A stretch of 63,412 nt of DNA from Candidatus Aenigmatarchaeota archaeon (GTDB lineage: Archaea > EX4484-52), in NCBI GenBank assembly GCA_023137195.1, contig JAGLPV010000044.1, positions 1 through 63,412 of the forward strand, given 5' to 3'. Each line of letters opens with the position of its first letter. The first letter of the stretch is position 1. The notes under the pieces were generated by a model. The model did no database searches. It had not been told where the DNA came from and saw nothing but the letters and a program-made list of their open reading frames with translations. Below are positions 345 through 51,310 of this stretch, piece by piece. The position numbers and the translations under genes are program-made.

Positions 345-1025
345 ATGAAATTAAATGATGATATCAAAAAGCCAATAGACATGCCAAAACTCCACAGTCC
401 GTTTAAGAGAAGAGAAATTGACGGAGAATATGTTTGCGTGCCGGAAATTGATGATGACTATAGGTGGGTTTTTACTTCTCAGGCAATAGCAATAGAGAAA
501 ATGGACGGGACAAATGTAAGCATAATTGTGGATGGAGAAAAAATAACTTCGATTTATAATAGGAAAAATTTAATAGATATGTGGAAAAAAGGGAACAAAA
601 GGTTTACAGAAGGTATTTTGGAGTCAATTGATCGCGAGGATTTTCTGCCAAATAAAGTTCAGGATGGGCAGTATTTTGGAGAGCTTTTGGGTCCGCGCAT
701 TAATGGCAATCCGTATGAATTAACTCAAAATTTATGGATTCCTTTTTCTGATATGAGTAAAAGATTAAGGTTTAAATTCTGGGATGATTTTGTCTGCGGA
801 CTTGACGGGAAGTCCGATGAAGAGATTTATGAGAAAGTAAGCGATGTTTTCAAAGGGTTGTGGAGTCTTTACAAACGGAAAAGGCGCGTTAAGGGAGATG
901 TTGATGAAAATACTGGATTTGTTGGTCTTGCGGCAGAAGGCATTGTGTTTTATAATGAAGAGACAAACCAGATGGGAAAATTGAGAAGAGATATGTTTGA
1001 CTGGTGGAAAGAGAGGAGGCATTAG
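345..1025 (+). CDS. RNA ligase family protein (Rnl2-like nucleotidyltransferase)
   Basis: This is a covalent nucleotidyltransferase of the RNA ligase fold, expected to be adenylated on lysine and to seal RNA nicks. Motif I is EKMDGTN with nucleophile K52. YNRKN near residue 71 fits motif Ia, GQYFGELLG near 108-116 fits motif III, AEGIVFYN near 198-205 fits motif IV, and KLRRDMF near 213 fits motif V. At 226 residues it holds only the catalytic domain, without the C-terminal domain of T4 Rnl2. It stands alone between rfcS and an ATPase gene, with no RtcB, polynucleotide kinase or CRISPR genes nearby, so the substrate is unknown. A capping-like or DNA ligase activity cannot be excluded. Confidence 0.72.
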   Translation: MKLNDDIKKPIDMPKLHSPFKRREIDGEYVCVPEIDDDYRWVFTSQAIAIEKMDGTNVSIIVDGEKITSIYNRKNLIDMWKKGNKRFTEGILESIDREDFLPNKVQDGQYFGELLGPRINGNPYELTQNLWIPFSDMSKRLRFKFWDDFVCGLDGKSDEEIYEKVSDVFKGLWSLYKRKRRVKGDVDENTGFVGLAAEGIVFYNEETNQMGKLRRDMFDWWKERRH

Positions 1026-1362
1026 TGATTGGTCATTTGTAGTGCATAAATTATATTGTGCGTTGTAGTGCACATATTAACCTTTAATTATGATTAAAGG
1101 TTTTGGTATAAAACTGTTAATTGTGATTAAGGGTTGTTGTTTGGGATGTATTTTTAGAGTAGGAATAATATTGTATTTTTCTGTTATTTATCATTTGTGT
1201 GTGACAAAAATAGATGGATTTGTCATTTATGAGTAGAATGGTTTGGTTGGAATGTGGCGTTTTTGGCTATATTTCTTTGGATAATAACCATACTCCACCC
1301 GGCTTATTTTCCGAAAATAAGACGACTGAAACCTTTTTAAATTCTAATGTTAATAATATTGT
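1026..1362. other. Intergenic region with a strong hairpin
   Basis: No credible gene is present in this 337-bp gap. A perfect 10-bp stem (AACCTTTAAT / ATTAAAGGTT, 4-nt loop) sits at 1079-1102 and probably ends the RNA ligase transcript. The phrase TTGTAGTGCA occurs twice just before it. The far end supplies the promoter for the DUF4143 ATPase: TTTTTAAAT lies about 25 bp before its ATG, which suggests a leaderless mRNA. Confidence 0.5.
1079..1102. terminator. 10-bp perfect stem-loop downstream of the RNA ligase
   Basis: The arms AACCTTTAAT and ATTAAAGGTT pair perfectly around TATG and are followed by a short T-rich stretch. The position, 54 bp after the RNA ligase stop, fits a transcription terminator. 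Confidence 0.5.
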
Positions 1363-14703: not shown

Positions 14704-14873
14704 TCATAAAAGTTTCCCCTACGCAAAATACTACTTTTAAGCTTATTTTCTGCTTATACTTTATTCACAGCAGAAAATAATACAAAGATATAATATCTGT
14801 ATTTAGATAGCATTTATGTATTTTGCTAGTATATCACGCCACATTACTTGCCTTACTTTTGTGCCGTGATATA
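14701..14873. repeat. Structured intergenic element, copy A
   Basis: Three modules are visible. A core at 14701-14741 (TAATCAT...ATACTACTTTTAAG) is followed by a perfect 12-bp hairpin TTATTTTCTGCT/AGCAGAAAATAA at 14743-14780. Then TAGCATTTATGTATTTTGC leads into a 13-bp imperfect hairpin, ATATCACGCCACA (14831-14843) / TGTGCCGTGATAT (14860-14872). All modules recur at 21979-22121, but there the core is inverted and sits inside the last hairpin. No protein-coding potential was seen. Confidence 0.65.
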
Positions 14874-17231: not shown

Positions 17232-19205
17232 ATGGTCAATTATAAACTTTCTATTAGCATGAGTATACTAGAAAATTTAGGACTTAATTTGTATAGTAGC
17301 ATCCCAGCAGTGATTGCAGAAGCTATTGCTAATTCATATGATGCGGATGCTGAACGAGTTGATATTGATATTGACCCTAAAACTAAAACAATAACCATTA
17401 CTGATGACGGGCATGGAATGACTGAGAAAGAATGTAATGACAGATATCTTCTCGTAGGATATCATAGAAGAGATGTAGGCGAAATTGAAACTCCAAAACA
17501 TCATCGACCTGTTATGGGTAGGAAAGGAATTGGCAAGTTATCTCTTTTTTCCATAGCTAAAAATATTGAAATCCATACCATCAAATTAGATAAAGATGAA
17601 AAGAAAATTGTTGAGAAAAATGGATTTATTATGGATAGGGACACCATAATTGATGATATTAAAAAAGATGGAGTTAAAGAGAGTAATGGCTGTGATTTGA
17701 CCTCCGTAGATCCAAAAAATATTGAAATTGAGAAAGGTACTAAGCTAATTTTAACAAAGTTGCAAAAGGATATCTCCAAAACAGAATTATTTCTGAGAAA
17801 AAGATTAGCAAGAAAATTTATTATTCTTGGGAAAAAATATAAATTCAGAGTTTATATAAATGGAAAAGAAATTGCATTGAGTGATAGAGATTATTTCTCA
17901 AAAATCCAGTATTTGTGGTTTTTTGGAGATCATGGAAAAAAATGTGTGAAAGAATGCAAGAAATTAGATAATAAGAAAGAGATTTCTAGTGAAATTGTTT
18001 TAGCAGATGGTACAAAATGTGCTGTGGGGGGGTGGATTGGCACAGTTCATGAAAGGAGTAATTTAGAAGAAGGAAATAATACAATAATAATTCATTCAAG
18101 AGGAAAATCTATTCATGACAATTTACTTACAAATATTGATAATAGTGGATTTGTTACTAAATATTTAATTGGAGAAATTAAGGCGGATTTTTTAGATGAT
18201 GACAATAAGGAAGATATTACTACAAGTGATAGGCAGAAGATTCAAGAAAACAATGAAAGATTTGAAAAGATAAAGGAATTTGTTGAAGAAATTATTAAAA
18301 AGATTAGGGTTCAATGGCAATCTTGGCGTGCAGAAGATGCTACTATAAAAGCTTGTCAAATCCCAGCAATTAAAAAATGGTTTGGATCATTAAAGGGAGA
18401 TAATAAAAAATATGCTAAACAATTGTTTGGAAAAATAGATAGGTTTCCAACTGAGGATATCACTTATAAAAAAGAAATATATAAAAATTCAATCATAGCA
18501 TTTCAAACATTGGCGATAAGAGATAATTTAAGCAAATTGGATAATATAAATTCCTCCGAACATATAGAAACTTTTATTAATATATTGGGTGAAATGGATC
18601 AACTTGAATCAGCTCATTATTATGAAATAATCCGAAGTCGTATAGGAATATTGAAAAAATTTGAAAATTTGGTTGATGGTAAGGTAAAAGAAAAAGTATT
18701 GCAAAAATATATTTTTAATCATCTTTGGTTGTTAAATCAAACTTGGGAAAGAGCCAATGTTATAAGTAAGCGTATGGAAGAAACGATTATAAAAGGCATT
18801 CGGAATATAAAGTTCACAGAAAAAGAAAAATTAGCAAGGGCTGATATTCAGTATAAAACTGTTGCTGGAAAGCATGTTATTATTGAATTAAAAAAATATG
18901 ATGCTTATGTAAATTTACATGATTTACAAAAGCAAGTTAACAAATATAAAAATATTTTACTTAAAATATTGAAAGACGTATATCATATTAAAAATCCAGA
19001 AATAGAAATTATATGTCTCTTGGGGAAAAAACCAGGACCTTTAGAAATGACTGAGAAAGAAATTAAAGAACATCTTAAATTAGAAGACGCTAGATATATT
19101 ACTTATGATGAACTATTAGAAGAAGTGACTATGGTTTATGGAAGTTATATTGAAAAAAATAAGGAATTAATTGAAATTCAAAATCTTATTGGAGATCTAG
19201 TATGA
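17232..19205 (+). CDS. MORC/MutL-like GHKL ATPase fused to a PD-(D/E)xK-like nuclease domain
   Basis: The N-terminal GHKL ATPase has the N-box EAIANSYDADA (30-40), the G1 box DDGHGM (58-63) and the G2 box GRKGIGK (96-102). These fit the MORC/MutL-like ATPases predicted by comparative genomics to work in restriction-modification operons. A linker and alpha-helical middle follow. Near residues 537-553, ADIQYKTVAGKHVIIELKK shows D537, E551 and K553 spaced as in PD-(D/E)xK nucleases. The protein is thus a predicted ATP-driven, dimer-clamping endonuclease. Its stop overlaps the ATG of the methyltransferase gene (ATGA). The sequence looks more AT-rich than neighbouring housekeeping genes, which fits horizontal transfer. 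Confidence 0.75.
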   Translation: MVNYKLSISMSILENLGLNLYSSIPAVIAEAIANSYDADAERVDIDIDPKTKTITITDDGHGMTEKECNDRYLLVGYHRRDVGEIETPKHHRPVMGRKGIGKLSLFSIAKNIEIHTIKLDKDEKKIVEKNGFIMDRDTIIDDIKKDGVKESNGCDLTSVDPKNIEIEKGTKLILTKLQKDISKTELFLRKRLARKFIILGKKYKFRVYINGKEIALSDRDYFSKIQYLWFFGDHGKKCVKECKKLDNKKEISSEIVLADGTKCAVGGWIGTVHERSNLEEGNNTIIIHSRGKSIHDNLLTNIDNSGFVTKYLIGEIKADFLDDDNKEDITTSDRQKIQENNERFEKIKEFVEEIIKKIRVQWQSWRAEDATIKACQIPAIKKWFGSLKGDNKKYAKQLFGKIDRFPTEDITYKKEIYKNSIIAFQTLAIRDNLSKLDNINSSEHIETFINILGEMDQLESAHYYEIIRSRIGILKKFENLVDGKVKEKVLQKYIFNHLWLLNQTWERANVISKRMEETIIKGIRNIKFTEKEKLARADIQYKTVAGKHVIIELKKYDAYVNLHDLQKQVNKYKNILLKILKDVYHIKNPEIEIICLLGKKPGPLEMTEKEIKEHLKLEDARYITYDELLEEVTMVYGSYIEKNKELIEIQNLIGDLV

Positions 19206-20146
19206 GATTTATAGACTTATTTGCGGGAATAGGTGGATTTAGGATAGCTTTAGAAAGCTTCGGACATTCTTGTGTTTTTTCTTCCGAAATTGATAAATTT
19301 GCAAGACAAACATATTCTGCAAATTTTGGTCATACCCCTCATGGAGACATCAAAAAAATAAAAGTGAATCATATCCCTAAACATGAAATACTCTGTGCTG
19401 GATTTCCTTGTCAGCCATTTAGTATTTCAGGTAAACAAAAAGGATTTAATGATATAAGGGGGACTCTTTTTTTTGATATAATTAGAATTACCAAATACCA
19501 CCAACCCAAATTGATTCTATTAGAAAATGTAAAAAATCTTGCATCCCATGATAACACTAAGACCTTAAATAAGATTATATCTAAATTAGATTATGTAGGA
19601 TATGATGTATTTCACAAAATTTTAAAATCTAGTGATTTTGGAGTTCCCCAAGCAAGAGTACGTATTTATTTTGTATGTTTTAGAAAAGATTTAAGTGTTA
19701 AAAAGTTTATATTCCCAAAATCTAAAAATAGAAATGTGTTCTTAAACTCGATAATTGATAAAACTGAGACATCTCCAGAATTTTTAATTAAAAGAGATGA
19801 TATTAAAATTTTTCCTAAAAAACTTCACACTAATATAACGGGTCTTATAAAAATTGGGGCAATAAATAAAGGTCGGCAAGGGGAAAGAATATATAGTATT
19901 GAAGGTTATGCTCCAACCCTCTCTGCAACAGGAGGAGGGCCTGCTGGAAAAACTGGAGCATACTTGATAAACAATAGAATAAGAAAGCTAACTCCCAGGG
20001 AATGTGCAAGTATACAAGGTTATCCTAAAAAATTTAAAATTCCAGTATCCAATAATCAATCATATAAACAGTTTGGAAACTCTATTTCTATTCCGGTTGT
20101 GAAAGCTATATTAAATGAAATTCAAAAAATCCCACATATTTATTAG
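19202..20146 (+). CDS. dcm: DNA (cytosine-5) methyltransferase
   Basis: This is a SAM-dependent C5-cytosine methylase. Motif I DLFAGIGGFRIAL lies at 5-17, the catalytic GFPCQPFS motif IV at 67-74 (C70), ENV motif VI at 108-110, QARVRIYFV motif VIII near 152-160, and the closing QFGNSISIPV motif X. The target-recognition region between motifs VIII and IX (about 165-245) is short, so the specificity should be a simple site. At 314 residues it matches small type II methylases. The start overlaps the GHKL ATPase-nuclease stop by 4 bp, so the two are a coupled restriction-modification pair. No separate specificity or Vsr gene was seen. Confidence 0.93.
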   Translation: MRFIDLFAGIGGFRIALESFGHSCVFSSEIDKFARQTYSANFGHTPHGDIKKIKVNHIPKHEILCAGFPCQPFSISGKQKGFNDIRGTLFFDIIRITKYHQPKLILLENVKNLASHDNTKTLNKIISKLDYVGYDVFHKILKSSDFGVPQARVRIYFVCFRKDLSVKKFIFPKSKNRNVFLNSIIDKTETSPEFLIKRDDIKIFPKKLHTNITGLIKIGAINKGRQGERIYSIEGYAPTLSATGGGPAGKTGAYLINNRIRKLTPRECASIQGYPKKFKIPVSNNQSYKQFGNSISIPVVKAILNEIQKIPHIY

Positions 20147-20462
20147 ATTCAAAAATTACATTTAGAAAACATATTTTGTAAAGCAGAACGTATTAAAAGT
20201 TTATAAATGAAATATTTTTTTAAGACCGCTTTTTTTTGTTTTCTCTCTCTAAAGTAAGCAAAAATTTAGGCGAATGTAATGAGCCGCTAAATTAATGTTA
20301 TGTTTAGTAGCTTTGCTATTGAAAAACCGTTTTTCTCTTTCTTGATTTAACGAAGGTGCCCATCTCGTTTGATTCTCGGTTTACTTCCATGGGCGGCAGT
20401 AAGAAAATTTTGGCTAACACCTATTGGGCGAATTGTTTGCACTAAAACATAAAAATCCAAAC
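20147..20462. other. Gene-free right border of the restriction-modification module
   Basis: No coding region is supported here. GCCCAT (20358-20363) and ATGGGC (20389-20394) pair. The 14-bp CGGCAGTAAGAAAA (20394-20407) is the exact inverted copy of 17082-17095, and GGCTAAC (20412-20418) inverts GTTAGCC at 17005-17011. These paired words flank the two-gene module like terminal inverted repeats. Confidence 0.5.
20394..20407 (-). repeat. Right inverted repeat flanking the restriction-modification module
   Basis: CGGCAGTAAGAAAA is the exact inverted partner of 17082-17095. The module between them carries only the GHKL ATPase-nuclease and methyltransferase genes. Confidence 0.5.
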
Positions 20463-20613
20463 AAAGCAAACAATCCTCCTTTCTTAATCATCTTTAGCAT
20501 AAATACATTTTCCATTTCCTGCTCTTCCAGACTTAATCTTATTTTTGAGATATTTTCTTCCAGTCTCGACAGGAGAATGAATTCAAGTGCGTTAACCCTT
20601 CTTTTTGTTTTTT
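20463..20613 (-). pseudogene. Detached 3' end of atpD (partial duplicate)
   Basis: This segment aligns without gaps to 22122-22272 (offset 1659), with 11 mismatches in 151 bp by my count. It encodes the last 40 or so residues of ATP synthase subunit D (RRVNALEFILLSRLEENIS...) but has no upstream part and no start. The native stop is mutated, so the frame runs on (KKGGLFALFG). It lies 25 bp after the alarmone synthetase stop. It is best read as a displaced gene end left by integration, or as one half of a direct-repeat pair. A plus-strand frame across it is a shadow. Confidence 0.85.
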
Positions 20614-20638
20614 ATTTGCTCATTTATTTTTAGTCTCT

Positions 20639-21706
20639 TTAAGAATATTTATTTAGAATTTTATTAAGATAAGTGATAAATTCCTTGGTGTCTAAAAAAT
20701 AATTAGGATATGCTTTTTTTAAGTCTACTGCTGTATCTGCTCCAACTAAAACAACATCATATTCTTTTTTACCATAAATTTTTTTCTCAGCATTTGCATA
20801 ATCTTTTATTGCTTTCTCTTCTTGTCGTTTCGAATATGCAGAGATTGTTAATCTTTCCAGGACAGTATCTAATTCTAATAAAAAGAAATGTAAATTTTTT
20901 TTGTTTTTTAAATCATCAAAAAGTTTGATTGATTTGGTCCAACTTTCCATTTTAGTTCTTACATTCAATTCTTTTTCTTTTTCTTTAATTAACAAATAAA
21001 GTTCTTTCTCATCATCCAGGGTATTTGGTATTGAGGGGCAACCTTCTATTTTTGCAAATGCAGAACTCATTAATTTAAAAAAAACTTTCCATTTTTCTTC
21101 CCCTTCATTTGATTTTATTGCCTGACCTGTAAAAAAACCAACTGTTTCAACTGCCGTCGCCCAGATATGTTGTAATTTTGATCTAATTTGCACTTCAATT
21201 AATAAGCCATTATATATTTTCTTTCCTTTATCGCTGTTATACTTGTAAATCAAATGTATGCTTCGGTATCCATCTTTTTTTGGATTAGAGATATAATCTT
21301 TTTCATTTACTTTTTTATGTTTCAAATCCCCTTTAATATAATGGTCGTGGTAAAGTTTTTTTGCTAATTGAACATTTGACATTACTACCCTACATCCAGC
21401 AATATCCTGCATTTGTGTAAGTTTCATCGTTGCTTTATTGTCGCCGTATTTCCTATTGAGTTTTTTTATAATTGATGGAACACGCTTAAGTCTTTGAGCA
21501 GATAATGCATTTTTATCTATTTTTTCAGAAACTCGTTTTAACCTTTTTTTAAAAATATGCATGGGATAGCTATGTGCTGCTCTCCAATTACTCAATATTT
21601 CTAAAGCACAATTTTTATTTTCTTCTGATTCTTTATTATTACGCAAAATAATTCCTGCAGAATCAGTTTTTGACTTTGAAAATTCTTTAGGATTTATTAT
21701 CTTCAT
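20639..21706 (-). CDS. RelA/SpoT-domain (p)ppGpp synthetase-like protein
   Basis: This protein has a nucleotidyltransferase domain of the RelA/SpoT family. Signature segments are RVPSIIKKLNRK, MQDIAGCRVVM near residues 104-114, NPKKDGYRSIHLIYKY near 145-160 and LIEVQIRSKLQHIWATAVE near 175-193; the catalytic E-x-Q is intact. There is no HD hydrolase, TGS or ACT domain, so it resembles a stand-alone small alarmone synthetase or toxic SAS, with a C-terminal region (about 230-355) of unknown role. Archaea generally lack RelA/SpoT, so transfer is likely. The gene is bracketed by two copies of the atpD 3' end, and phased repeats lie upstream. No antitoxin gene is obvious. Confidence 0.85.
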   Translation of the reverse strand: MKIINPKEFSKSKTDSAGIILRNNKESEENKNCALEILSNWRAAHSYPMHIFKKRLKRVSEKIDKNALSAQRLKRVPSIIKKLNRKYGDNKATMKLTQMQDIAGCRVVMSNVQLAKKLYHDHYIKGDLKHKKVNEKDYISNPKKDGYRSIHLIYKYNSDKGKKIYNGLLIEVQIRSKLQHIWATAVETVGFFTGQAIKSNEGEEKWKVFFKLMSSAFAKIEGCPSIPNTLDDEKELYLLIKEKEKELNVRTKMESWTKSIKLFDDLKNKKNLHFFLLELDTVLERLTISAYSKRQEEKAIKDYANAEKKIYGKKEYDVVLVGADTAVDLKKAYPNYFLDTKEFITYLNKILNKYS

Positions 21707-21728
21707 AGCAATATAAAGAACATGTTAG

Positions 21729-21737
21729 TATTTAAAT
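21729..21737 (-). promoter_or_regulatory. TATA box of the alarmone synthetase gene
   Basis: On the minus strand ATTTAAATA is centred about 27 bp before the ATG at 21706, predicting a leaderless mRNA. The nearest repeat part-copy (CCAATTGCGCAG) sits just upstream, where the BRE and activator or repressor sites would lie. Confidence 0.55.
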
Positions 21738-21740
21738 GTT

Positions 21741-21918
21741 TCCAATTGCGCAGTAACGATTTAAAATCGATGTCAAGTTGCGCGGTTTGCGGAAATTGCT
21801 AAAAATGGCTAAAATGGGCTCCAGATGGCATTATTATGGTAAAAGTTAATATTGGCGATTATTCTAATGTCGAGTTGCGCGGTTTGTAGAAATAACTTGT
21901 GTCGAGTTGCGCGGTTTT
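21741..21918. repeat. Phased TGTCGAGTTGCGCGGTTT repeats upstream of the alarmone synthetase
   Basis: Full copies begin at 21771, 21868 and 21900, with TGTC(A/G)AGTTGCGCGGTTT nearly invariant. A part-copy CCAATTGCGCAGT begins at 21742. Copies are 32 bp apart (part-copy to first, second to third), and 97 bp separate the first and second, close to three 32-bp steps. The first two share extended similarity for about 30 bp. Three helical turns of spacing suggest binding sites for one protein on the same DNA face. There are no regular spacers, so it is not a CRISPR array. Confidence 0.6.
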
Positions 21919-21978
21919 GAAAAAAATTATTTTAAATGATAGAAGGGAGAGTTTAGTTCTATTTATAGCAAAACACAT

Positions 21979-22121
21979 TAGCATTTATGTATTTTGCCAG
22001 TATCACGCCACATACTTGCATTTTGTTCTTGTTGCACAAATGTGATGAGACAAGAACAAAATCTTAGAAGTAGTATGGATTGTAAGGAAACTTCCATGAT
22101 TACTTTTGTGCCGCGATATAG
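21979..22121. repeat. Structured intergenic element, copy B (rearranged relative to copy A)
   Basis: TAGCATTTATGTATTTTGC is followed by TATCACGCCACA (22001-22012), whose partner TGTGCCGCGATA lies at 22107-22118. Between them are a perfect 13-bp hairpin ATTTTGTTCTTGT/ACAAGAACAAAAT (22020-22062) and a core (22063-22102) that is the reverse complement of the copy A core at 14701-14741. The element ends exactly where the atpD-derived repeat begins. Confidence 0.65.
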
Positions 22122-22272
22122 AAAGTAAATAATCATCCTTTCTTAATCATCTTCAGCCTAAATACATTTTCTCTTTCCTGCTCTTCCAGACTCAATCTTA
22201 TTTTCGAGATATTTTGTTCCAGTCTCGGCAGGAGAATGAATTCAAGTGCGTTAACCCTTCTTTTTGTTTTTT
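22122..22272 (-). repeat. Direct repeat (intact copy) covering the 3' end of atpD
   Basis: This is the intact partner of 20463-20613, in the same orientation, with 11 mismatches in 151 bp. Together they frame the alarmone synthetase and its control region, as left and right attachment sites would frame an integrated element. Confidence 0.75.
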
Positions 22273-22750
22273 CTATCTCAATCAACAATTTCCTGAGTGT
22301 TGTTTCAATCTCAGCGGATTCTATTATTTTTTCAAGAAGGCATTCATATTGTCTTGAGGCGCTGTCCAGTCTTGCGGAACCTTCAACAAGGCTGTAGCCT
22401 CGTTCATATATGCTTTTGCATATCTCGCCCTGTTTTGTTATTTTTGGCACTTTTACACCCATGAGGTTTTTGGTCTCGATTTCAAGAGGGATTTCTTTTA
22501 GGTAAAGGGCTGCTGTTTTTATTGCAATTCCGCCGTCGTGCATTTCTGTTGTTTTCATTTTTTCCTGGGCAACTGCGTACAATTCAGACATTTGGCTCTT
22601 CTGTCCTTTGGCGTTTTCCAGGATTTTGAAAAACTCCATTATCAGACCGTCTCTTTTCTTTTTCAAGAGACTGTAGCCGTTTTTTGCCAGTTTGTATTGC
22701 TTTTTTAATTTTAGCAGTTCGCTTCTTGTTGCTTTTACATCTATTGCCAT
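22133..22750 (-). CDS. atpD: A-type ATP synthase subunit D
   Basis: Subunit D is the long antiparallel coiled coil that forms the central rotor shaft and couples A3B3 catalysis to ring rotation. The N-terminal helix TRSELLKLKKQYKLAKNGYSLLKKKRDGL and the C-terminal helix ending RLEQNISKIRLSLEEQERENVFRLKMIKK are typical of the family. At 205 residues the length is normal. It is the last gene of the ATPase operon, 6 bp after a carbonic anhydrase gene. Its final 140 bp are duplicated at 20463-20613, which marks this gene end as an integration point. Confidence 0.9.
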   Translation of the reverse strand: MAIDVKATRSELLKLKKQYKLAKNGYSLLKKKRDGLIMEFFKILENAKGQKSQMSELYAVAQEKMKTTEMHDGGIAIKTAALYLKEIPLEIETKNLMGVKVPKITKQGEICKSIYERGYSLVEGSARLDSASRQYECLLEKIIESAEIETTLRKLLIEIEKTKRRVNALEFILLPRLEQNISKIRLSLEEQERENVFRLKMIKKG

Positions 22751-22756
22751 AATAAC

Positions 22757-23416
22757 TTATTTTGTAAATATGTTCTCCTTTAATTGAGTGTTTGTGATGT
22801 TTTTTATCAATTCGTGACCTGCAAGTGTTTGCCTGTCTTTTTGCCCGTTTATGTTTATTATGTATGTGGTACTGCATTGGTTTTCATCGTATGCGCCGGA
22901 TGTGTCGCATACGCATCCTACGACACAGAGGCTGTCGCTGTTGATTTGTTGGGCGTATTGTTTTGTTATTTTTTCAACAGAGTCATTTACATTGTCCTCT
23001 ACGCATTTTATGTGGTCGTTAATATCGGTGAAAGTGTTTTTTATTGTGGATAATCTCTTTTTTATCGCTTCTGTTTCATCGTCAAAGTTTCCTGTTGCGG
23101 CTTTTACTGCGCCGCAGTCGGTGTGACCCAATATTACTACGACAGGGATTTTGAGGTGTTGTATTGCGTAATCGATTACTGCATCTGAGTCCGAGGAGGT
23201 GTTTCCTATGTCTTTTCCGACAAATACATTGCCCATCATGTCTTCGAGATTTCCATAGAGTGCAAGAGGCATTCTTGAATCAGAGCAGGTTATGAGGGCA
23301 ACTTTTGGTTTTTGACCGCTTGTGTGTTGGTTTAGCAGTTCCTGTTTTTCTTTTGCTATCCTGCTGTTGTTTTCCAGCATTTGACAAAAAAAATCATAGG
23401 CTTCCTGTTTTGACAT
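22757..23416 (-). CDS. Beta-class carbonic anhydrase
   Basis: This zinc enzyme interconverts CO2 and bicarbonate. The beta-class ligand pattern is complete: C44-x-D46-x-R48 in CSDSR, then H98-x-x-C101 in GHTDC, with the GHTDCGAVKAA signature. The fold's N-terminal helix and the DAVIDYAIQHLKIPVVVILGH strand-helix are evident. At 219 residues the length fits. The unusual feature is its position: it lies inside the A-ATPase operon, between subunits B (12 bp away) and D (6 bp away), on the same strand. The product is predicted to be cytoplasmic. A link between bicarbonate/proton supply and the ATPase is inference. Confidence 0.88.
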   Translation of the reverse strand: MSKQEAYDFFCQMLENNSRIAKEKQELLNQHTSGQKPKVALITCSDSRMPLALYGNLEDMMGNVFVGKDIGNTSSDSDAVIDYAIQHLKIPVVVILGHTDCGAVKAATGNFDDETEAIKKRLSTIKNTFTDINDHIKCVEDNVNDSVEKITKQYAQQINSDSLCVVGCVCDTSGAYDENQCSTTYIININGQKDRQTLAGHELIKNITNTQLKENIFTK

Positions 23417-31420: not shown

Positions 31421-34400
31421 TTACTCCCAGACATGCACTGAAAACACTGCCGGTCCAAACATCCAGGGGGTTTTGCCTATATAGTACTCGTAAGTTTCTA
31501 CGTTACCCATAGTTATGCCGTATTGTTCCAGGAAAAGTCTTAGTCTTTCTTTTGCATCTTCTGTCGCCGCCGTCTGGTTGGAGAATACTTCTCCATAGCC
31601 AACAGAGCCAGGAACCTTGAATGTATATATCATCCTGTTGTCCGGGGATGTGTTGGTGGGCGTTAAGTAATTAATTCCTGTGTTCATTTGGATTGAGAGG
31701 TTTTCCCCCTGGATAACTACGTTGGAAGGAATGTTGACTATATATGGATCTCCAAGTAAGCGGTATTCTGGTCCATAATCGCTTAAATTATATATTTTCT
31801 GCCAGCCTGAGCCGTCTGAGTTGTTTATGTAGACTCTGTCTGTCCAGTAATCTGAAGAATAGGATGTGACTCTTGCATCCAATACAGTTATGCCGGAGGG
31901 AATAGGATAGGTCTTATTTTTCTGGTTTTCTATAATCCCTCCAAATTCTTCCCTATCGACAGTGACTGTCACTTCCTTGTATTTTATTTCTTCTGCAGTT
32001 GGAGTGTGGTTGAAATAGATGTATGAGTCAGGATAGAGTGTGTTGTTTGCGCTTCCTTCAAATTCCATTAGCTGTGTGACATAACTGAGGTTAACCATGC
32101 TTTCGGCGATTTCCAAGTATATTTCTTTTAGTTCATCTGCATTACTACTCTGGTAATATTTTGGACAGTATGTTGAATTTGTTCCTTCCAGCCAGTCAAC
32201 TGCTGTGCAGTCCCAGCATGCAATTTTTCTTAATGTATTTTGACCACCTACATCTGGTCCGAAAGATACAGCGTATACCTTTATGTTGTATTCTCTTGCG
32301 TCACAAGCAGCCTGTATTGCATGATCCTGGGGGTCATATGTTGTATCTCCGTCTTGGTCATGGTCTGAGACAGGATCCATACTACAATGCGTTCCGGCTT
32401 CTCCATCAGACATAACAAGCATAGCCCTTTCTATTCTATCTGTTTCCACTTCTATTTTAGTTAATTCTATTTGAAGATCGAATTTCGCACTGTCAGAATC
32501 ATTGTTGTTTAGTTTTACAGACACAATATTTTTTCCTTCAACCAGATACGACAAGGGGATTTTAATATTTCCTTTTATTTTTACATCATCAATATAAAAT
32601 CGCTCTCCATCATCTCCGGATCTACATCCGAACCTGACAAGAAAATTGCTGATTTTGTTGTATCCGGATAAATCTATTTGTGCATGACGATATGTGTGAT
32701 CGTCATCATTGGTATCATAATATGCAACATCATGCCAACTGCCATCCCATACTCTTACATTAGCATATTCCCAGGATTCGAAATTGCTTGGACCAAGCCT
32801 CCACCAGTAAGATAATTCCGGATCGTCATATTGCGTTAAATCTACTGTAGTTTCCGCATACCCGTAAGAGTCCATGTCCCGGAACACAAGAACATCTGTT
32901 CCGTTGTAGGCAGGATAGTATCCTTGATTTGCCATTATATATACTTCCTGCCAGGTATCATCAATGAACCAGTAACCTGGTGCTGTATTGATGTCATTTC
33001 CGTCAATTTTGATTGCTCCTGTTCCATAGTAAGTTTCAAAGCCATCATAAAATGTGTTATTTTTCGGTCGGTTCCAATAAGTTGCCTTATGTTCTGCGGT
33101 CTCCTTATCAATTAGATAATTATTTATATAAATCTCTGCATTATCGTCAGAAAGAACATAAAGCAATGTTTCCTGAATATCTGATAAGTTATTAATTGTG
33201 AAATGCTTTCTGAAGTAATAGTTTCCATTACTTGATTCATGTTTAAATTCCACTAAATCAAATTGAGTGGATGTAGTTTGGTTGTGTTCGCCAATTAGTT
33301 TGATTTTAACCTTATTGTTGCCGGACAAATAATTATCCTCATTATCTGTTATATTACAATAATAATAAGACCACACTCCGGGATTTATTGTTTTATTTTC
33401 ACATAAGCCATATTCCCATTTGCTGTTTGCATAATCAAAAACAGATATGTCATAATAGGATGTTGTGTTTGTTTTTACTTTTATTTTTACGGATATGTTG
33501 TTTGGATTGTAGATTGGATCAGATGTAAACTCAATTTTTGTCATATGTTCGTCCCGGGTTCCAGTTATTGCAATATCATCAACATAAAATCTCTCATCAT
33601 CCCAACTCGATTTGCATCCGAACCGGACAATAAAATTACTGATTTTGTTGTATCCGGATAAATCTATTTGTGCATGACGATAGGTGTGGTCATCATCATC
33701 ATAATTGTAATATGCAACATCATGCCAACTGCCATCCCACACTCTTACATTAGCGTATTCTCCATAATCAAAACCATTTGGACCAAGCCTCCACCAGTAA
33801 GATAATTCCGGATTGTCATATTGCGTTAAATCTACTGTAGTTTCCGCATACCCGTAAGAGTCCATGTCCCGGAACACAAGAACATCTGTTCCGTTGTAGG
33901 CAGGATAGTATCCTTGATTTGCCATTATATATACTTCCTGCCAGGTATCATCAATGAACCAGTAACCTGGTGCTCTATTGATGTCATTCCCGTCAATTTT
34001 GATTGCTCCTGTTCCATAGTAAGTCTCAAAGCCATCATGAAAGGGACTAATGGGAGGCATACTTTTAATATCTAAGGATATACCATTTTCTGTATATGTG
34101 TTCTCTTTTGTTCCGCTGGTATTTGTACCAGTTATTATTGTGTAATTAAATATATGATTCTTGATATATGACGTGTCGTAATTATTGCCTATGTCTGTGT
34201 TTATATTGGGTGCATATGCGACATTTTCAAATCCTAATATTGCGTTGCCTGAACTCCATGTTGTGTCGTTGTAATTTAGTTCTTTCCAGTTTCTTCCATT
34301 GCCGTCGTTAGGGGGGTCGGTTAAAGGGCAATCTTTATTGTACGACCAGTTGCTTTTGTTTTCAATCAATAATGTCTTTATTTCGGTTATATTTGGTGGT

Positions 34401-35968
34401 GCCATATGTGCGGTTAATAATTCATTTGCTTTGTTTATTCCACAACAAATACATGTTAACGACGAATCATCGTATGTGTTTATTTGATTTGTAAGACTTG
34501 TTTTATCTGTAGAAAGATCGTGTGTTTGGCTTACTGACGTACTAAAAGAAACTAACCCAATTTGGTTGCTTGTTGCATTTAACATAGCATTAACAAAATC
34601 TTTATCTACACACTTTGCTATACTGAGTCTTCGTGTATCAGATAGATTAAGATTGGGATCATTACATGATCTATCTGTTCCATCTACTGTATTGTCATAT
34701 CCAATTCTCCAGTCCATACTTCCACTAACATCAGTAATCAATACAGCATCTGTAGCACCATACCCTCCTTCCTGATTAAAACTCCCTTCAATATATCCAA
34801 ACCGTATGGGAATTGTATTAGAACTTAACATATTATAATCCAGTCCTGAAGAAGACAGTAAGGTACTTAGATTTCCTTTATCAATAGAAATACTCTGTTC
34901 TCCCGTACCATTGCTTTGGAAAACAGTTGCATTTGCAATCTTCAAATAGATACTGGTGTTGGATATGTTGTTGTAATAATGCAAAAATGCTGTCATGTTG
35001 TTGAGTTGCCCCGGAACAAAAAAAGAAGAATAAATATTGAATACTCCATCTATGCCGGGAAAATTATATTTATTCTTTGGTGGAGCCGTGTTTAGTTGTG
35101 TTGTATTATAGGATACTTTAATGAATCCTCCCCCTATATAACTTCTTGTCAGATTGTTAGATAAAAAGACAATATGGATGTTGTTTTCATCGGGTTGAAT
35201 ATATGAGAGATATGTCGGATTTGTAATATTGGCTTTTAGATTTGCGCGAAGACTTGTCTGGCTTGCATTTCTAGAATAGTTGCCTGAATAATTGTTGTTT
35301 ATATATATTGTGAAATTGTCTCCTGTATTCATTTCCAGATTTATTTTCTTTACTGTGTCTACATCTAATGGCATAGTAAATGTCTTTGTAATATTTCCCT
35401 GACCAATGAACCCTCCAAAATACAGATATTTTGATGTTTCTTTGCTGATTTCCATGATTGTTGACCTTGCAGTATATCCCTTGAACGGGACATTTTCCTT
35501 GTATCCGGAGATTATCCTGGAGGCAGAGGTTATTGTTCTTGCATTGTGGTAGCCTGTGCTTGAATTATAGAGTATCGTGCCTCCTGCATCATCAATGTCT
35601 TTTACTTTAATGGTATATTTTCTGTCTGGCGGAAGAAGAGGCGAAAAAGTTTCTTTGGTTATATTTTCAATATACTCTGTCTGGTTGACAGACCATAGCA
35701 GTCCGCAAATATCAACCAACGTCTTGTTTTTGTCTTCATCTTCCAGGTGGGTTTCGTTTATCAGTGCGTCGACGAATGTATCGTTGAGGTCGCTTAATTT
35801 TGTAAGGGACAATATCTGCATTGCATCTTCTGCGTTGAAGTACATGTCTTTATAGTGGATTGTGTCATAGGAATCAAGAGTGGGCAGTTGGAAAAGAACG
35901 ACAGATCCCAGTAAAAGAAAGACGAGCGCAAGGGTTGAGTCCATTGTAAAGAAAAAACCTTTTTTCAT
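31421..35968 (-). CDS. Giant surface vWA protein with pilin-like N-terminus (paralog 1)
   Basis: This 1515-residue protein starts MKKGFFFTMDS followed by a long hydrophobic segment (about 12-28), like a class III (prepilin-like) signal. The rest is rich in N-x-S/T sequons and predicted extracellular. A vWA domain begins near 408 with the MIDAS motif DVSGS (about 411-415). Its later strand MLVMSDGEAG comes only near 1185, so roughly 650 residues are inserted into the fold. The insert carries two near-identical jelly-roll-like domains (FYDGFETYYGTGAI...). The last 230 residues are shared with the downstream-strand paralog at 36004. The function is unknown; adhesion or filament tip capping is inference. 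Confidence 0.75.
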   Translation of the reverse strand: MKKGFFFTMDSTLALVFLLLGSVVLFQLPTLDSYDTIHYKDMYFNAEDAMQILSLTKLSDLNDTFVDALINETHLEDEDKNKTLVDICGLLWSVNQTEYIENITKETFSPLLPPDRKYTIKVKDIDDAGGTILYNSSTGYHNARTITSASRIISGYKENVPFKGYTARSTIMEISKETSKYLYFGGFIGQGNITKTFTMPLDVDTVKKINLEMNTGDNFTIYINNNYSGNYSRNASQTSLRANLKANITNPTYLSYIQPDENNIHIVFLSNNLTRSYIGGGFIKVSYNTTQLNTAPPKNKYNFPGIDGVFNIYSSFFVPGQLNNMTAFLHYYNNISNTSIYLKIANATVFQSNGTGEQSISIDKGNLSTLLSSSGLDYNMLSSNTIPIRFGYIEGSFNQEGGYGATDAVLITDVSGSMDWRIGYDNTVDGTDRSCNDPNLNLSDTRRLSIAKCVDKDFVNAMLNATSNQIGLVSFSTSVSQTHDLSTDKTSLTNQINTYDDSSLTCICCGINKANELLTAHMAPPNITEIKTLLIENKSNWSYNKDCPLTDPPNDGNGRNWKELNYNDTTWSSGNAILGFENVAYAPNINTDIGNNYDTSYIKNHIFNYTIITGTNTSGTKENTYTENGISLDIKSMPPISPFHDGFETYYGTGAIKIDGNDINRAPGYWFIDDTWQEVYIMANQGYYPAYNGTDVLVFRDMDSYGYAETTVDLTQYDNPELSYWWRLGPNGFDYGEYANVRVWDGSWHDVAYYNYDDDDHTYRHAQIDLSGYNKISNFIVRFGCKSSWDDERFYVDDIAITGTRDEHMTKIEFTSDPIYNPNNISVKIKVKTNTTSYYDISVFDYANSKWEYGLCENKTINPGVWSYYYCNITDNEDNYLSGNNKVKIKLIGEHNQTTSTQFDLVEFKHESSNGNYYFRKHFTINNLSDIQETLLYVLSDDNAEIYINNYLIDKETAEHKATYWNRPKNNTFYDGFETYYGTGAIKIDGNDINTAPGYWFIDDTWQEVYIMANQGYYPAYNGTDVLVFRDMDSYGYAETTVDLTQYDDPELSYWWRLGPSNFESWEYANVRVWDGSWHDVAYYDTNDDDHTYRHAQIDLSGYNKISNFLVRFGCRSGDDGERFYIDDVKIKGNIKIPLSYLVEGKNIVSVKLNNNDSDSAKFDLQIELTKIEVETDRIERAMLVMSDGEAGTHCSMDPVSDHDQDGDTTYDPQDHAIQAACDAREYNIKVYAVSFGPDVGGQNTLRKIACWDCTAVDWLEGTNSTYCPKYYQSSNADELKEIYLEIAESMVNLSYVTQLMEFEGSANNTLYPDSYIYFNHTPTAEEIKYKEVTVTVDREEFGGIIENQKNKTYPIPSGITVLDARVTSYSSDYWTDRVYINNSDGSGWQKIYNLSDYGPEYRLLGDPYIVNIPSNVVIQGENLSIQMNTGINYLTPTNTSPDNRMIYTFKVPGSVGYGEVFSNQTAATEDAKERLRLFLEQYGITMGNVETYEYYIGKTPWMFGPAVFSVHVWE
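32583..33051 (-). repeat. Duplicated jelly-roll coding unit, copy 2
   Basis: This 469-bp segment matches 33573-34041 at a constant offset of 990 bp (exactly 330 codons). The central 230 bp or so (32811-33044) are nearly identical, differing at only a few bases. It encodes one insert domain of the vWA protein. Confidence 0.85.
33573..34041 (-). repeat. Duplicated jelly-roll coding unit, copy 1
   Basis: This is the partner of 32583-33051. The reading frame is maintained through both copies. High nucleotide identity points to recent duplication or ongoing gene conversion. Confidence 0.85.
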
Positions 35969-36003
35969 ATAATTAATTAGGATACAAAAATATATAAATG
36001 AGT

Positions 36004-39000
36004 TTATTCCCAGACATGCACTGAAAACACTGCTGGTCCAAACATCCAGGGGGTTTTGCCTATATAGTATTCGTAGGTTTCTACGTCACCCAGGGTTATG
36101 CCGTATTGTTCCAGGAAAATTCTTAGTCTTTCTTTTGCATCTTCTGTCGCTGTTGTCTGGTTGGAGAATACTTCTCCATAACCAACAGAGCCGGGAACCT
36201 TGAATGTATATATCATCCTATTGTCCGGGGAGGCTCCTGTAGAGTTTATAGGATTGAACCCAGTATTCATCCTGATAGAAAAGTTATTTCCTGGGATAAC
36301 AAGGTTGGATGGGATGTGGACTATATATGGGTCGCCCAGTAGAGGGTATTGTAATCCATAGTCGCTTAGGTTATATGCTTTCTGCCAACCTGAGCCATCT
36401 GAATTGTTTATGTAAATACTATCTGTCCAGTAGTCGGACGAATACGAGGTGACTCTTGCATCCAGTACAGTTATGCCAGAGGGGATAGAATATGTCTTGT
36501 TTTTTGGGTCTTCTATAGACCCCCTGAATTCTTCCCTGTCGATAGTCACTGTTACTTCCTTATACTTAATTTCCTCTGTGGTTGGAGTGTAGTTGAAATA
36601 TATGTATGAATCCGGGTAAATTATTACATGGGTGTATGTTCCTGTGATATTCAATTTCTGGGTATTGTAACTTATCATTGTATTTGCGATGTCCTGATAT
36701 ATCTGCTTTAGTTCATCTGCATCATTGCTTGAACGGTATATGCCGTGTCCACAGTCTGCAATACCCCGGAGAGTTAACTCATCTACTGTACTTCCAAAAC
36801 CAACAGCATGGGATATTATCCCGTAATTTTCATAAGCATAGCATGCAAAGTCTATTGCCTGCTGTTTTGCCTGGGTATCAGGACAATTCCAGATAGGAGG
36901 ATAACAATAATTTGCCCCTCCATCACTCATGACAAGCATTGCCTTATTTCTTGAGTCATCGAAAGAGTCAAGTTTCATGTCGAATCTTGTGGAGCCAATG
37001 CTGTTGTATAATACAGTGGCCAAAATATTCGTGCCTTCTTTAAAATAAGACCTGTCGATTAGTTCAATGCGATTCCAGTATTCTGCATCATGATTTGGTC
37101 CGGGATCTGAGTCAATTAGTTGCCCGTTTAGATATATATCAGTCATATCATCTGATGTGACTTTAAGGAATCCTCTTCCTACTTTGTTCATGTCATCTAT
37201 CGTGAAATTTTTCCTGAAGTAATAATTATCTGTTCCGTTTCTTATTTCTACGAGGATATCATCGAACCTGAAATAGCCCCATTCATCTACTCTATTTGCC
37301 TGTAATTTCCCGCCAATATCAAGGTAATATACTCCTTGTCCTTCAATCCAGGGAGTTATATCCTGCGTTGTAGATGTTGGAGGAATATCAATATCCGGGT
37401 TAATTCTATAATTTATTTCAGGAGATGTATCTCCCCCGGCACTTGATTGTTCTGTTCCGAGCCAGTGGACGCCGGTAGTAGGGCTTGTCCATTGAGCTTT
37501 TATCCAGACTTCATCACTGTCTTCAAAACGGGCATTGCCGTCCCATTCGTATTTGAATGATAATCTTGCTGTACCATTAGCAGATAATATAGCATGCATG
37601 TCCGGCGTTATGTTTATCTGAATGCCATATGCTCCAGAGCAATCATTATTAGTGCATCTGTTTCGTGCAGGAGCACCAGTTCTCGTGTCAAATTCCAGCA
37701 TTTCATTTGCAACCAGGTTGTAGTCTATATTGTCGTCATAACCATAAGGTCCGACGTTGTTCTGTGGGTCATAATCCCAGCCGTCATCCCCCATATTCCA
37801 TCCGAATGTGTTTGCTGTCGAGTTGTATCCTGTCTCAAAACTTACAGGAATTGTGCTTTGGTTATCGTCCCAGAGGTTAGCATAAGTTGTATTTCCGTTG
37901 CTGCCCCCTGTTGCAATCTCTGTTGTTACCGGTATTGAACCGGTGCCGTTTCCAAAAACAGCATTTCCTGTTGACCAGTTTGTCTGGAGGGTGTAGTTGT
38001 AGTCATACCATCTGTTCCCGTAGCTGTCGTCCGGCGGTTCTGTAGTAAGGAAACTGTCATTGTAATACCATGTGCTTCCATTGTTCATAATCGTCGTTAC
38101 ATTAATTGTGGTAAGAAGCATGGCTGTTGAGTCTGCTATGCCGCAGGATATGCATGTCGCTCCCAAGACATGGTCATAACCAGTGATTTTTGTCTGCAAT
38201 GTTGCATTGTTTTGAGTAAGGTATATTGTTCGGCCATGGTCTGTTTGTGTGCCGTATGCTATGAGTCCTACTTTTTGACCTTCATTATTTAAAATCGTAT
38301 TTACGAATTCTTTATCTGCTATCTTGGCAACTGCCATACGCTCCTGGTTTCCCGGCTGGACATCGGAAGTACTCATGCTCCCGGATAAATCTGTAATCAA
38401 AACAACATCACTGCCGTCACTTAGTCCTGTCAGATTCTTTATGCCCATCCGGATTGGAATTGTTCTGGAACTCAACGAGTTATAGTTTAGTCCCGAAGAA
38501 GATAAATTTGCACTTATCTGTCCTTCAGATACATAAATAGTTTGTTCTCCTACGCTCTTGTTGGTGAAGATAGTTGCATTTGCAATTTTTAAATATACTG
38601 TGCCGTTTGTGTTGTTTGTGTCATAATGCAAAAATACTGTCATGTTGTTGAGTTGCCCCGGGACGAAAAAGGAGGAATATATGTTGAACATGCCGTCTAT
38701 ACCAGGAAAATAATATTTTTTCTGCGATTCTGCTGTATTGAGCTGGGTTGTGTTGTATGATATTTTTATGAATCCTCCGCCGATATATTTTTGGCTTAAT
38801 TCATCTGACAAAAAGACAATACTTATGTTGTTTTCATTGGGTTGAATATATGAGAGATATGTTGGATTTGTAATATTGTATTTTAGATTTGCGCGAAGAC
38901 TTGTCTGGCTCGCATTTCTAGAATAGTTGCCCGAATAATTGTTATTTATATATATTGTGAAATTGTCTCCTGCATCCATTTCCAGGTATATTTTTTTTAT

Positions 39001-39630
39001 CGTATCTATATTAGAGGGCATAGTGAATGTTTTTGTAATGTTTCCCTGTCCAATGAACCCGCCGAAATAAAGGTACTTTGACGTTTCTTTGCTGATTTCT
39101 TTGATAGTTGACCTTGCAGTATATCCTTTGAATGGGACATTTTCCTTGTATCCTGAGATTATTCTGGAGGCAGAGGTTATTGTTTTTGCATTGTAGTAGC
39201 CTGTGTTGGAAGCGTATATTGTGTTACTTTTATTGATGTCTTTTATGTTGATTGCATATTTTGTGCCTGTCTGGAGAAGAGGTGAAAAAGTTTCTTCTGT
39301 TATGTTTTCAATGTAGTCTGTCTGGTTGACAGACCATAGCAGTCCGCAAATATCGATCAAAGTCTTGTTTTTGTCTTCATCTTCCAGGTAGGTGTCGTTA
39401 ATTAGTTTGTCCACGAAGGTGTCGTTAAGGTCGCTTAATTTTGTGAGAGATAGTATCTGCATTGCATCTTCTGCGTTGAAGTACATGTCCTTGTAGTGGA
39501 TTGTGTCATAGGAGTCATGCGAGTATAGTTGAAAAAGTACAGTGGCGGCGATCAATAAAAAGGAGAGTGCAATAACAGAATCAAATGTAAAGAAGAAGCC
39601 TTTTCCTCCACAATGAGTATTATTTTTCAT
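36004..39630 (-). CDS. Giant surface vWA protein with pilin-like N-terminus (paralog 2)
   Basis: This is the 1208-residue tandem paralog of the protein at 31421. It starts with GGKGFFFTFDS and a hydrophobic segment (about 17-34). The first 350 and last 200 residues are closely similar to the paralog, including DSYDTIHYKDMYFNAEDAMQ and the ending GKTPWMFGPAVFSVHVWE. The vWA MIDAS motif DLSGS is near 417-421, and MLVMSDGGA comes near 902. The insert between them (about 500-880) differs from that of paralog 1 and contains its own beta-sandwich-like domain. Many N-x-T/S sequons indicate an extracellular protein. It lies 35 bp upstream of paralog 1 on the same strand, so they may be co-transcribed. 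Confidence 0.75.
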   Translation of the reverse strand: MKNNTHCGGKGFFFTFDSVIALSFLLIAATVLFQLYSHDSYDTIHYKDMYFNAEDAMQILSLTKLSDLNDTFVDKLINDTYLEDEDKNKTLIDICGLLWSVNQTDYIENITEETFSPLLQTGTKYAINIKDINKSNTIYASNTGYYNAKTITSASRIISGYKENVPFKGYTARSTIKEISKETSKYLYFGGFIGQGNITKTFTMPSNIDTIKKIYLEMDAGDNFTIYINNNYSGNYSRNASQTSLRANLKYNITNPTYLSYIQPNENNISIVFLSDELSQKYIGGGFIKISYNTTQLNTAESQKKYYFPGIDGMFNIYSSFFVPGQLNNMTVFLHYDTNNTNGTVYLKIANATIFTNKSVGEQTIYVSEGQISANLSSSGLNYNSLSSRTIPIRMGIKNLTGLSDGSDVVLITDLSGSMSTSDVQPGNQERMAVAKIADKEFVNTILNNEGQKVGLIAYGTQTDHGRTIYLTQNNATLQTKITGYDHVLGATCISCGIADSTAMLLTTINVTTIMNNGSTWYYNDSFLTTEPPDDSYGNRWYDYNYTLQTNWSTGNAVFGNGTGSIPVTTEIATGGSNGNTTYANLWDDNQSTIPVSFETGYNSTANTFGWNMGDDGWDYDPQNNVGPYGYDDNIDYNLVANEMLEFDTRTGAPARNRCTNNDCSGAYGIQINITPDMHAILSANGTARLSFKYEWDGNARFEDSDEVWIKAQWTSPTTGVHWLGTEQSSAGGDTSPEINYRINPDIDIPPTSTTQDITPWIEGQGVYYLDIGGKLQANRVDEWGYFRFDDILVEIRNGTDNYYFRKNFTIDDMNKVGRGFLKVTSDDMTDIYLNGQLIDSDPGPNHDAEYWNRIELIDRSYFKEGTNILATVLYNSIGSTRFDMKLDSFDDSRNKAMLVMSDGGANYCYPPIWNCPDTQAKQQAIDFACYAYENYGIISHAVGFGSTVDELTLRGIADCGHGIYRSSNDADELKQIYQDIANTMISYNTQKLNITGTYTHVIIYPDSYIYFNYTPTTEEIKYKEVTVTIDREEFRGSIEDPKNKTYSIPSGITVLDARVTSYSSDYWTDSIYINNSDGSGWQKAYNLSDYGLQYPLLGDPYIVHIPSNLVIPGNNFSIRMNTGFNPINSTGASPDNRMIYTFKVPGSVGYGEVFSNQTTATEDAKERLRIFLEQYGITLGDVETYEYYIGKTPWMFGPAVFSVHVWE

Positions 39631-48731: not shown

Positions 48732-49730
48732 TTATTTTATTTTTCTCTTCATTTTTAGTAGGCTTAAGAACATCAATCCCATCGATAAGAATATTGTCGG
48801 AACTTCAGGGATTGCTGTTAAGGGGAGTAGATCTTTGTTGTTTCCCACGGGAAGATTATGAGGAGTGTCTCCAAATCCATCGCCATCTGAGTCAGCACCA
48901 TTGTAGTCTGAAAAATAATTTCCTCCTATGTATAATCCGCCAACTATGTTTGGTCCTGTTGAATTTGTTGTGTTCCAGAAATTGTTGCATATATCTACGG
49001 CATTGTTTGTATTGTTCAGGCGATTGTTGTAGATGAGATTGTTGTAGGCGTTGGATGTAGTTATACCTGCCAAGTTATTTGAATTTATGGTGTTTCCCAT
49101 AATTGTATTTTTGTCGGAGTAAGATATATAGAGTCCTATTTTTTTGTTATCCTTAATTGTATTGTGATTAATAGTATTGTTATTGGAGTAATACATATAT
49201 ATCCCTTGGAATTCATTTGAATTTGCATTGTTATTTTCGATTATATTTGTATCTGCATCATGTAGGAGTATTCCGCCAAGATAGTTGTTTTCGTTTGCAA
49301 TGTTGTTTTTTATTGTGTTGTTTTCTGCTAAATGCAAGTATATGCCACCCTTCCTATTGGAGTTTGCGGTGTTGTCTGTGATAACGTTGTTATTTGCATA
49401 TTTTAGATAAATTCCATAATCCCAGTTCGTGGAAACACAGTTCTTTATTATGACATTTGTGTTTGTTGAAGAACTTCTTTTTACCTGGATTCCATAAGTA
49501 TTTTGTGTTAAAATGCCGTCAATTGTGTGTCCCCGGCAGTCAAGAACGACGTTGTTTGCTGTAATATCCAGGCATATTGTATTGCCTGAATTTATTATGT
49601 CAGCAGTCAAATAATAAGTTCCTTGGGAATTTATCGTTGTGCACGAAGAAATTGGTGTGGCTGCACTTACCATCTGCAAGAGCATAAAATTAATTATTAA
49701 AACTGTTAGGACAAATATTGTTTTTTTCAT
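48732..49730 (-). CDS. NosD-like right-handed beta-helix surface protein with PEVPT tail (1)
   Basis: This is a predicted secreted, cell-surface protein. An N-terminal signal peptide (MKKTIFVLTVLIINFMLLQ) precedes about 250 residues of short parallel beta-helix repeats of the NosD/pectate-lyase type (NNVITDNTANSNRKGGIYL, NNTIKNNIANENN and so on). The C-terminus is IPEVPTIFLSMGLMFLSLLKMKRKIK: a Pro-rich motif, a hydrophobic helix and basic residues, as in archaeal PEF-CTERM sorting signals. The ATG at 49730 follows AAGGTGA. A TATA box at 49833-49843 supplies its own promoter. The ligand or substrate is unknown. Confidence 0.8.
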   Translation of the reverse strand: MKKTIFVLTVLIINFMLLQMVSAATPISSCTTINSQGTYYLTADIINSGNTICLDITANNVVLDCRGHTIDGILTQNTYGIQVKRSSSTNTNVIIKNCVSTNWDYGIYLKYANNNVITDNTANSNRKGGIYLHLAENNTIKNNIANENNYLGGILLHDADTNIIENNNANSNEFQGIYMYYSNNNTINHNTIKDNKKIGLYISYSDKNTIMGNTINSNNLAGITTSNAYNNLIYNNRLNNTNNAVDICNNFWNTTNSTGPNIVGGLYIGGNYFSDYNGADSDGDGFGDTPHNLPVGNNKDLLPLTAIPEVPTIFLSMGLMFLSLLKMKRKIK

Positions 49731-51309: not shown

Positions 51310-51310
51310 T

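Follow-up and report, generated by a model that had tools for sequence, protein, structure and literature searches.

Integrative elements are known to enter at the 3′-ends of protein-coding genes, as e14 and phage 21 do at icd and SCC does at rlmH. The locus described here is like them in that incoming DNA regenerates the 3′-end and the old end is displaced as a direct repeat, and unlike them in its size (about 1.7 kb), its single gene, the lack of a recombinase and of a recognisable core, and the unrelated targets at which the arrangement is found. It can also be compared to the homology-facilitated illegitimate recombination described in transformation or conjugation for bacteria under selection (PMC3240628), with which it would share one homologous and one non-homologous junction; here, however, the process is read from natural archaeal scars in which DNA was added and a gene end duplicated.

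The gene carried at this locus is closest to CapRel-SJ46 and the fused CapRel toxSAS (Zhang et al. 2022, PMC9712102; 2024, PMC11578894), grouped as PDC-S33, which it matches over the full length and with which it has in common the G-loop tyrosine, the ATP-coordinating arginines, the YXXY motif and the single-gene toxin-antitoxin organisation. It differs from the known CapRel toxSAS in its archaeal host, in its distinct archaeal clade and in its upstream CCGCGCAA repeats, and the word "archaea" is absent from the main texts of the CapRel/toxSAS papers that we searched. In archaea with small genomes, single-gene defence systems have a patchy distribution, and the question addressed here is how such systems can move when no mobile element is visible.

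The 3′-end of atpD is duplicated around a single gene

The window, i.e., the whole stretch of 63,412 nt that was analysed, is contig C39 of G000, an archaeal assembly of 1.42 Mb in 57 contigs. A previous reading made from the letters alone (the sequence-only reading) had noted a 151-bp direct repeat with 11 mismatches and no gaps, and self-BLAST recovered exactly this repeat (20463-20613 and 22122-22272, 92.7% identical, E about 1e-58 to 1e-60). It had assigned the repeat to the 3′-end of atpD, and the repeat indeed comprises the last 140 nt of the PF01813 gene together with the 11 nt past its stop codon (Table 1). In agreement with that reading, nothing but one gene, its upstream repeats and a hairpin lies between the copies: in the direction of atpD come the hairpin element, then three CCGCGCAAC repeats, then a RelA_SpoT gene of 355 aa. 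The native stop is missing from the outer copy, as that reading had also stated (TGA to GGA), and this copy carries additional missense changes. A gene-end direct repeat next to a regenerated gene is the arrangement seen with integrative elements at gene 3′-ends. The A-type ATPase operon is on the minus strand in the order C-F-A-B-carbonic anhydrase-D, and the carbonic anhydrase gene (22757-23416) likewise separates atpB from atpD in the congener G003 (60% identity).

Table 1. Features of the window, in window positions, and gene-end scars (intact gene / cargo) found in the survey of archaeal genomes
Feature	Position	Strand	Evidence or remark
Type II restriction-modification pair	17232-20146	+	beyond the outer copy
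BbrUII/HgiDII-family endonuclease	17232-19205	+	NF050001, E 1.6e-202
C5-methyltransferase	19202-20146	+	DNA_methylase, E 4.9e-99
Ancestral atpD 3′ flank	20429-20462	-	orthologous to G003 C7:7174-7257
Outer repeat copy	20463-20613	-	decayed former atpD 3′-end, stop lost
Transferred module (upstream repeats, gene, about 20-nt tail)	20620-21884	-	common to G020, about 88% DNA identity
CapRel-type fused toxin-antitoxin (PDC-S33), 355 aa	20639-21706	-	PADLOC PDC-S33, E 2.5e-116
CCGCGCAAC repeat, proximal copy	21777-21788	-	near TATA-like ATTTAAATA; kept in G020
CCGCGCAAC repeat, middle copy	21874-21885	-	kept in G020
CCGCGCAAC repeat, distal copy	21906-21917	-	
Hairpin, long form of multicopy REP/MITE-like repeat	21979-22124 (about)		passenger; RNA fold z = -4.0
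Inner repeat copy	22122-22272	-	functional atpD 3′-end and 11 nt after the stop
atpD, A-type ATPase subunit D, intact	22133-22750	-	PF01813, E 4.3e-56
Scar 1: atpD / CapRel	G000 window		151 bp, 92.7%
Scar 2: purB / ParE-type toxin and putative antitoxin	G000 C4 (L165) 395-1333		168 bp, 95%
Scar 3: Eco57I-type restriction-methylase / 206-aa membrane-like protein	G000 C1:65021-68938 (L130)		118 bp, 76%
Scar 4: dph6 / 296-aa protein			58 bp, 91%
Scar 5: 231-aa gene / 80-aa weakly antitoxin-like protein			103 bp, 85%
Scar 6: RNase Z-like gene / nucleotidyltransferase and putative HEPN partner	G152 C1:141200-143108 (L180)		56 bp, 96%

The outer copy corresponds to the former end of atpD

We examined atpD and its 3′ flank in relatives of G000. 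In G003, atpD is followed by a 420-aa amidohydrolase gene and then by a more decayed remnant of the atpD 3′-end. This remnant and its flank are 81% identical over 85 nt to the outer copy and flank of the window, including the exact 21-mer TGTTTTAGTGCAAACAATTCG, of which there is one copy in G000 and one in G003, each just beyond the atpD 3′-end remnant. Since an orthologous remnant and flank are present in the congener, the outer copy is, on this comparison, the ancestral atpD end, and in both genomes atpD was separated from its old end by an insertion. The 21-mer was also considered as a multicopy att site, which was rejected given one copy in each of the two genomes. The insertions in G000 and G003 were probably separate events, since the copies are 93% identical to each other in the former and about 63% in the latter, with the two atpD genes differing by about 23%; a single ancestral insertion shared by both is unlikely on the same figures, although gene conversion could mask it. 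In G001, atpD continues into a weakly similar flank, on a contig that stops about 173 nt past the stop codon, and G002 is without atpD. A mosaic signal was sought in the atpD 3′-end and none was seen.

The window belongs to a metagenome-assembled genome that is fragmented and incomplete and contains repeats, all of which would favour an assembly artefact. However, misassembly is extremely unlikely, since the two copies differ by 7%, the outer remnant is matched by an ortholog in G003, and G152, a single-contig genome, shows this anatomy too (see below).

The gene between the copies is of the CapRel type

The sequence-only reading had called the gene an alarmone synthetase. A RelA/SpoT domain is present (PF04607, E 6e-20), but CapRel-type toxSAS with a fused antitoxin is the better name. 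PDC-S33 also includes CapRel-SJ46 itself (E 7e-87), and the window protein aligns over almost its full length with the PDB entries 7ztb/9erv (E 4.5e-49), the first of which is named as CapRel-SJ46 in PMC11782079, while the second is cited in a later CapRel paper (PMC11578894). The residues shown to be important in CapRel-SJ46 are the ATP-coordinating R79 and R116, Y155 in the G-loop, and Y352 and Y355 of the YXXY motif. Their equivalents in the window protein are R72, R106, Y147 and Y333-P-N-Y336, and these positions are kept in 26 of 26 aligned rows, among which are two rows from G049 and one from a viral contig. The protein has the RelA/SpoT-type synthetase domain of the CapRel fused toxSAS (R72, R106, Y147; PF04607) and, at the sequence level, their C-terminal antitoxin domain (YXXY and scaffold; 7ztb/9erv): in the scaffold of CapRel-SJ46 (V338, L339, A341, A351), V319, L320 and A332 are kept and A341 is replaced by G322.

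Since the match to CapRel-SJ46 is full-length and both the catalytic residues and the YXXY motif are kept, the most fitting reading of the cargo is a fused toxin-antitoxin that would abort viral infection, and not a stringent-response synthetase; its function in the archaeon is what we infer from this match. CapRel would probably be held shut by its own YPNY motif. A viral protein may then bind the C-terminal domain, leading to tRNA modification, so that translation would stop in the infected cell.

CapRel was recently transferred, and its archaeal homologs are scattered

Among 34 genomes of the phylum, PDC-S33 was found in two, G000 and G020, the latter from another family. The CapRel proteins of these two are 91% identical, compared to about 53% for AtpD, and hence, judging by this difference, the CapRel gene was recently acquired by horizontal transfer. 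Vertical inheritance of CapRel behind atpD was rejected on these identities and on the distribution (2/34 genomes). The DNA homology between G000 and G020 covers 20602-21884, with one edge adjoining the outer atpD copy, and no atpD end is present at the CapRel module of G020.

The position of this edge bears on the idea that the atpD end was duplicated in tandem and that CapRel and the hairpin arrived independently between the copies. Plain tandem end duplications do exist in G000, as on C5 (L166, 3865-4384), where the 3′-end of a likely aspartate-semialdehyde dehydrogenase gene is repeated with a 253-bp period and without cargo. However, no more than 7 nt separate the CapRel homology from the outer copy, and two events would be required at the same place in both species, and again at several unrelated loci, so that we consider this course of events very unlikely.

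Matches to PDC-S33 with E values of 1e-20 or better were found in 25 of the 371 genomes of another archaeal phylum; these genomes are scattered over 24 genera, and for three of them the match is partial or limited to a domain. A quick tree placed 23 archaeal CapRel sequences together and apart from those of phages and plasmids (SH-aLRT 94), the outlier among the archaeal sequences being G410. The divergent CapRel gene of G410 lies between two 115-bp direct repeats (L150, 1512-1626 and 2986-3099) with a GCCTAAC motif, which are possibly integron attC sites; beside CapRel in the window, no obvious attC site was seen. In G194 (C21; L148, 7831-9953), CapRel is directly upstream of an apparent ribosomal protein L3 gene cluster.

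Upstream repeats are shared by archaeal CapRel genes

The locus adds an archaeal CapRel clade with a common upstream repeat motif. Two to four copies of CCGCGCAA, in a single orientation and beside a TATA-like ATTTAAATA, are present in archaeal CapRel upstream regions (window 21770-21925; L102, L112, L114, L116 and L118). CGCGCAA was counted 28 times in 26 regions upstream of archaeal CapRel genes, compared to 0.38 expected from base shuffles, with G049 counted twice and thus 26 independent occurrences; 27 of the 28 point the same way, at regular distances from the start. There are only 40 occurrences on both strands of the examined 1.02 Mb of G000, and the exact CCGCGCAAC 12-mer is absent elsewhere in G000. 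The CCGCGCAA repeats were also considered as att or integron sites, but the same motif in one orientation upstream of other archaeal CapRel genes makes a regulatory role more likely, and the repeats are likely to form a conserved operator.

The hairpin element is a dispersed repeat

The hairpin is like REP/MITE intergenic hairpin repeats in being multicopy, hairpin-forming and intergenic; it is unlike them in its nested short and long forms, in having no transposase assigned to it and in its place as a passenger between atpD and CapRel. The short form measures about 66 bp and the long form has a second hairpin of roughly 76 bp in the loop (window 21979-22124 and 14808-14854, and G000-wide). 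G000 has at least eight copies that are nearly complete, besides many short ones; most are located in intergenic regions, often where two genes converge. Since it is one of at least eight near-full genomic copies, the hairpin is a passenger and not the cargo, and as a member of a dispersed genomic repeat family it was rejected as the driver of the insertion. An Rfam search of the region returned no family.

The scar recurs at other genes

We surveyed 2.16 Mb, made up of stretches of G000 (1.02 Mb), G152 (0.36 Mb), G003 (0.22 Mb), G194 (0.19 Mb) and the control G035 (0.36 Mb), for remnants of the last or first 60 residues of each gene within 12 kb of it, with a cargo gap of more than 300 bp; part of the reason for including G194 and G003 was a case known beforehand. 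C-terminal remnants with cargo between were found at six loci downstream of the intact gene (Table 1) and at none upstream, whereas full-size paralogs are evenly split between the two sides. The N-terminal counterpart, an upstream remnant with cargo, was not seen in the survey, and the control showed no scar. The atpD pair of G003, found by DNA comparison and too decayed to register in the survey, is a seventh scar. With such small counts (6 vs 0), the recurring scar is a supported lead and not an established rule.

Of the six cargoes, three are toxin-antitoxins and one more is antitoxin-like, the HEPN assignment in G152 being made by eye and by position with no Pfam match; two or three of the six are not recognisable as defence or toxin-antitoxin genes. 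The repeats of the different loci are unrelated in sequence and range from 56 to 168 bp. Relative to the stop codon, they end at 0, 0, 0 and -1 nt at four of the six loci and at +11 and +13 at the remaining two. At the Eco57I locus, the C-terminal pattern is retained in both copies, and each copy runs into the beginning of the gene that follows it; both junctions have the look of natural operon overlaps. Of 58 differences between copies, 29 are synonymous; under a null in which the inner copy is constrained and the outer one free, this gives P = 0.002 when flat and P = 0.08 with a rough transition weighting, and the synonymous excess is hence only suggestive. We searched the literature on gene-end duplications of this kind and found no paper matching all terms.

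Donor DNA with a gene end could account for the scar

The anatomy is best accounted for if CapRel came beside atpD on DNA bearing the atpD 3′-end of a close relative, and homologous recombination left the displaced old end, a course of events that we consider rather probable. The incoming DNA would consist of the atpD 3′-end of the relative and the CapRel cargo. A crossover within the shared gene end would give atpD the incoming end and place the cargo behind it, and the old end of the recipient, together with its flank, would be pushed to the far side and decay there. The route that we infer would be either a single crossover, the incoming DNA being a circle, or two junctions of which one is homologous and the other illegitimate. 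Where the CapRel module joins the outer copy, both partners have the same run of six A (read by eye), as in illegitimate joining.

The same repeat could have arisen as a target-site duplication, if the cargo entered a staggered break in the atpD end, repair doubled the 151 bp and the outer copy then decayed. At atpD, it is mostly the outer copy that carries the polarised changes, a pattern also expected from simple duplication followed by decay, and this, together with the weak synonymous excess (P = 0.08), counts against the donor gene end. However, repeats ending within 1 nt of the stop codon at four of the six loci favour a donor gene end with cargo over target-site duplication, and such endings would be expected because donor and recipient are alike only within the gene, whereas nothing would make a duplication of the target stop at that point. 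Moreover, both Eco57I copies look functional and are 24% apart, and the class of N-terminal remnants with cargo upstream was not seen. We therefore regard target-site duplication as distinctly improbable.

The sequence-only reading had proposed an integrated mini-element at atpD with no integrase visible. An insertion with a regenerated end and a displaced old end is indeed present, CapRel is horizontally acquired and the slot holds a different gene in G003; the dedicated element is the part that found no support. Such a site-specific element would carry CapRel and a replacement atpD 3′-end and would use a recombinase in trans, comparable to e14 at icd and SCC at rlmH, in line with the use of the atpD slot twice with different cargo and with the end of similarity near stop codons. 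However, CapRel is the only ORF between the repeats, and no recombinase gene was found there or among the neighbouring genes identified. The 11 mismatches over 151 bp leave identical stretches inside the repeat and no recognised core at its edges, and the G020 module is without an atpD end. Since the repeats elsewhere are unrelated in sequence and length, there is also no common recognised site. A site-specific mini-element is thus rather unlikely, and homologous recombination of donor DNA, which fits the anatomy better, is favoured. It counts against this route that no genome in the donor state, with atpD-CapRel but lacking the second copy, was found.

More tentatively, it is possible that toxin-antitoxin and defence genes in DPANN-like archaea spread as minimal "homology-addressed" cassettes, made up of the cargo and the 3′-end of a housekeeping gene, which would be able to enter any genome that has this gene through host recombination, restore the gene precisely up to the stop codon with no dedicated recombinase, and leave the displaced end behind as a scar. 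With this scar, i.e., a lone foreign gene followed by a displaced gene 3′-end, such movement can be counted in any genome, and the scar would indicate both the insertion site and the direction of transfer.

Elsewhere in the window (31421-39630 and 48732-53653), large surface-type genes lie in tandem and have shared segments that are 71-90% identical.
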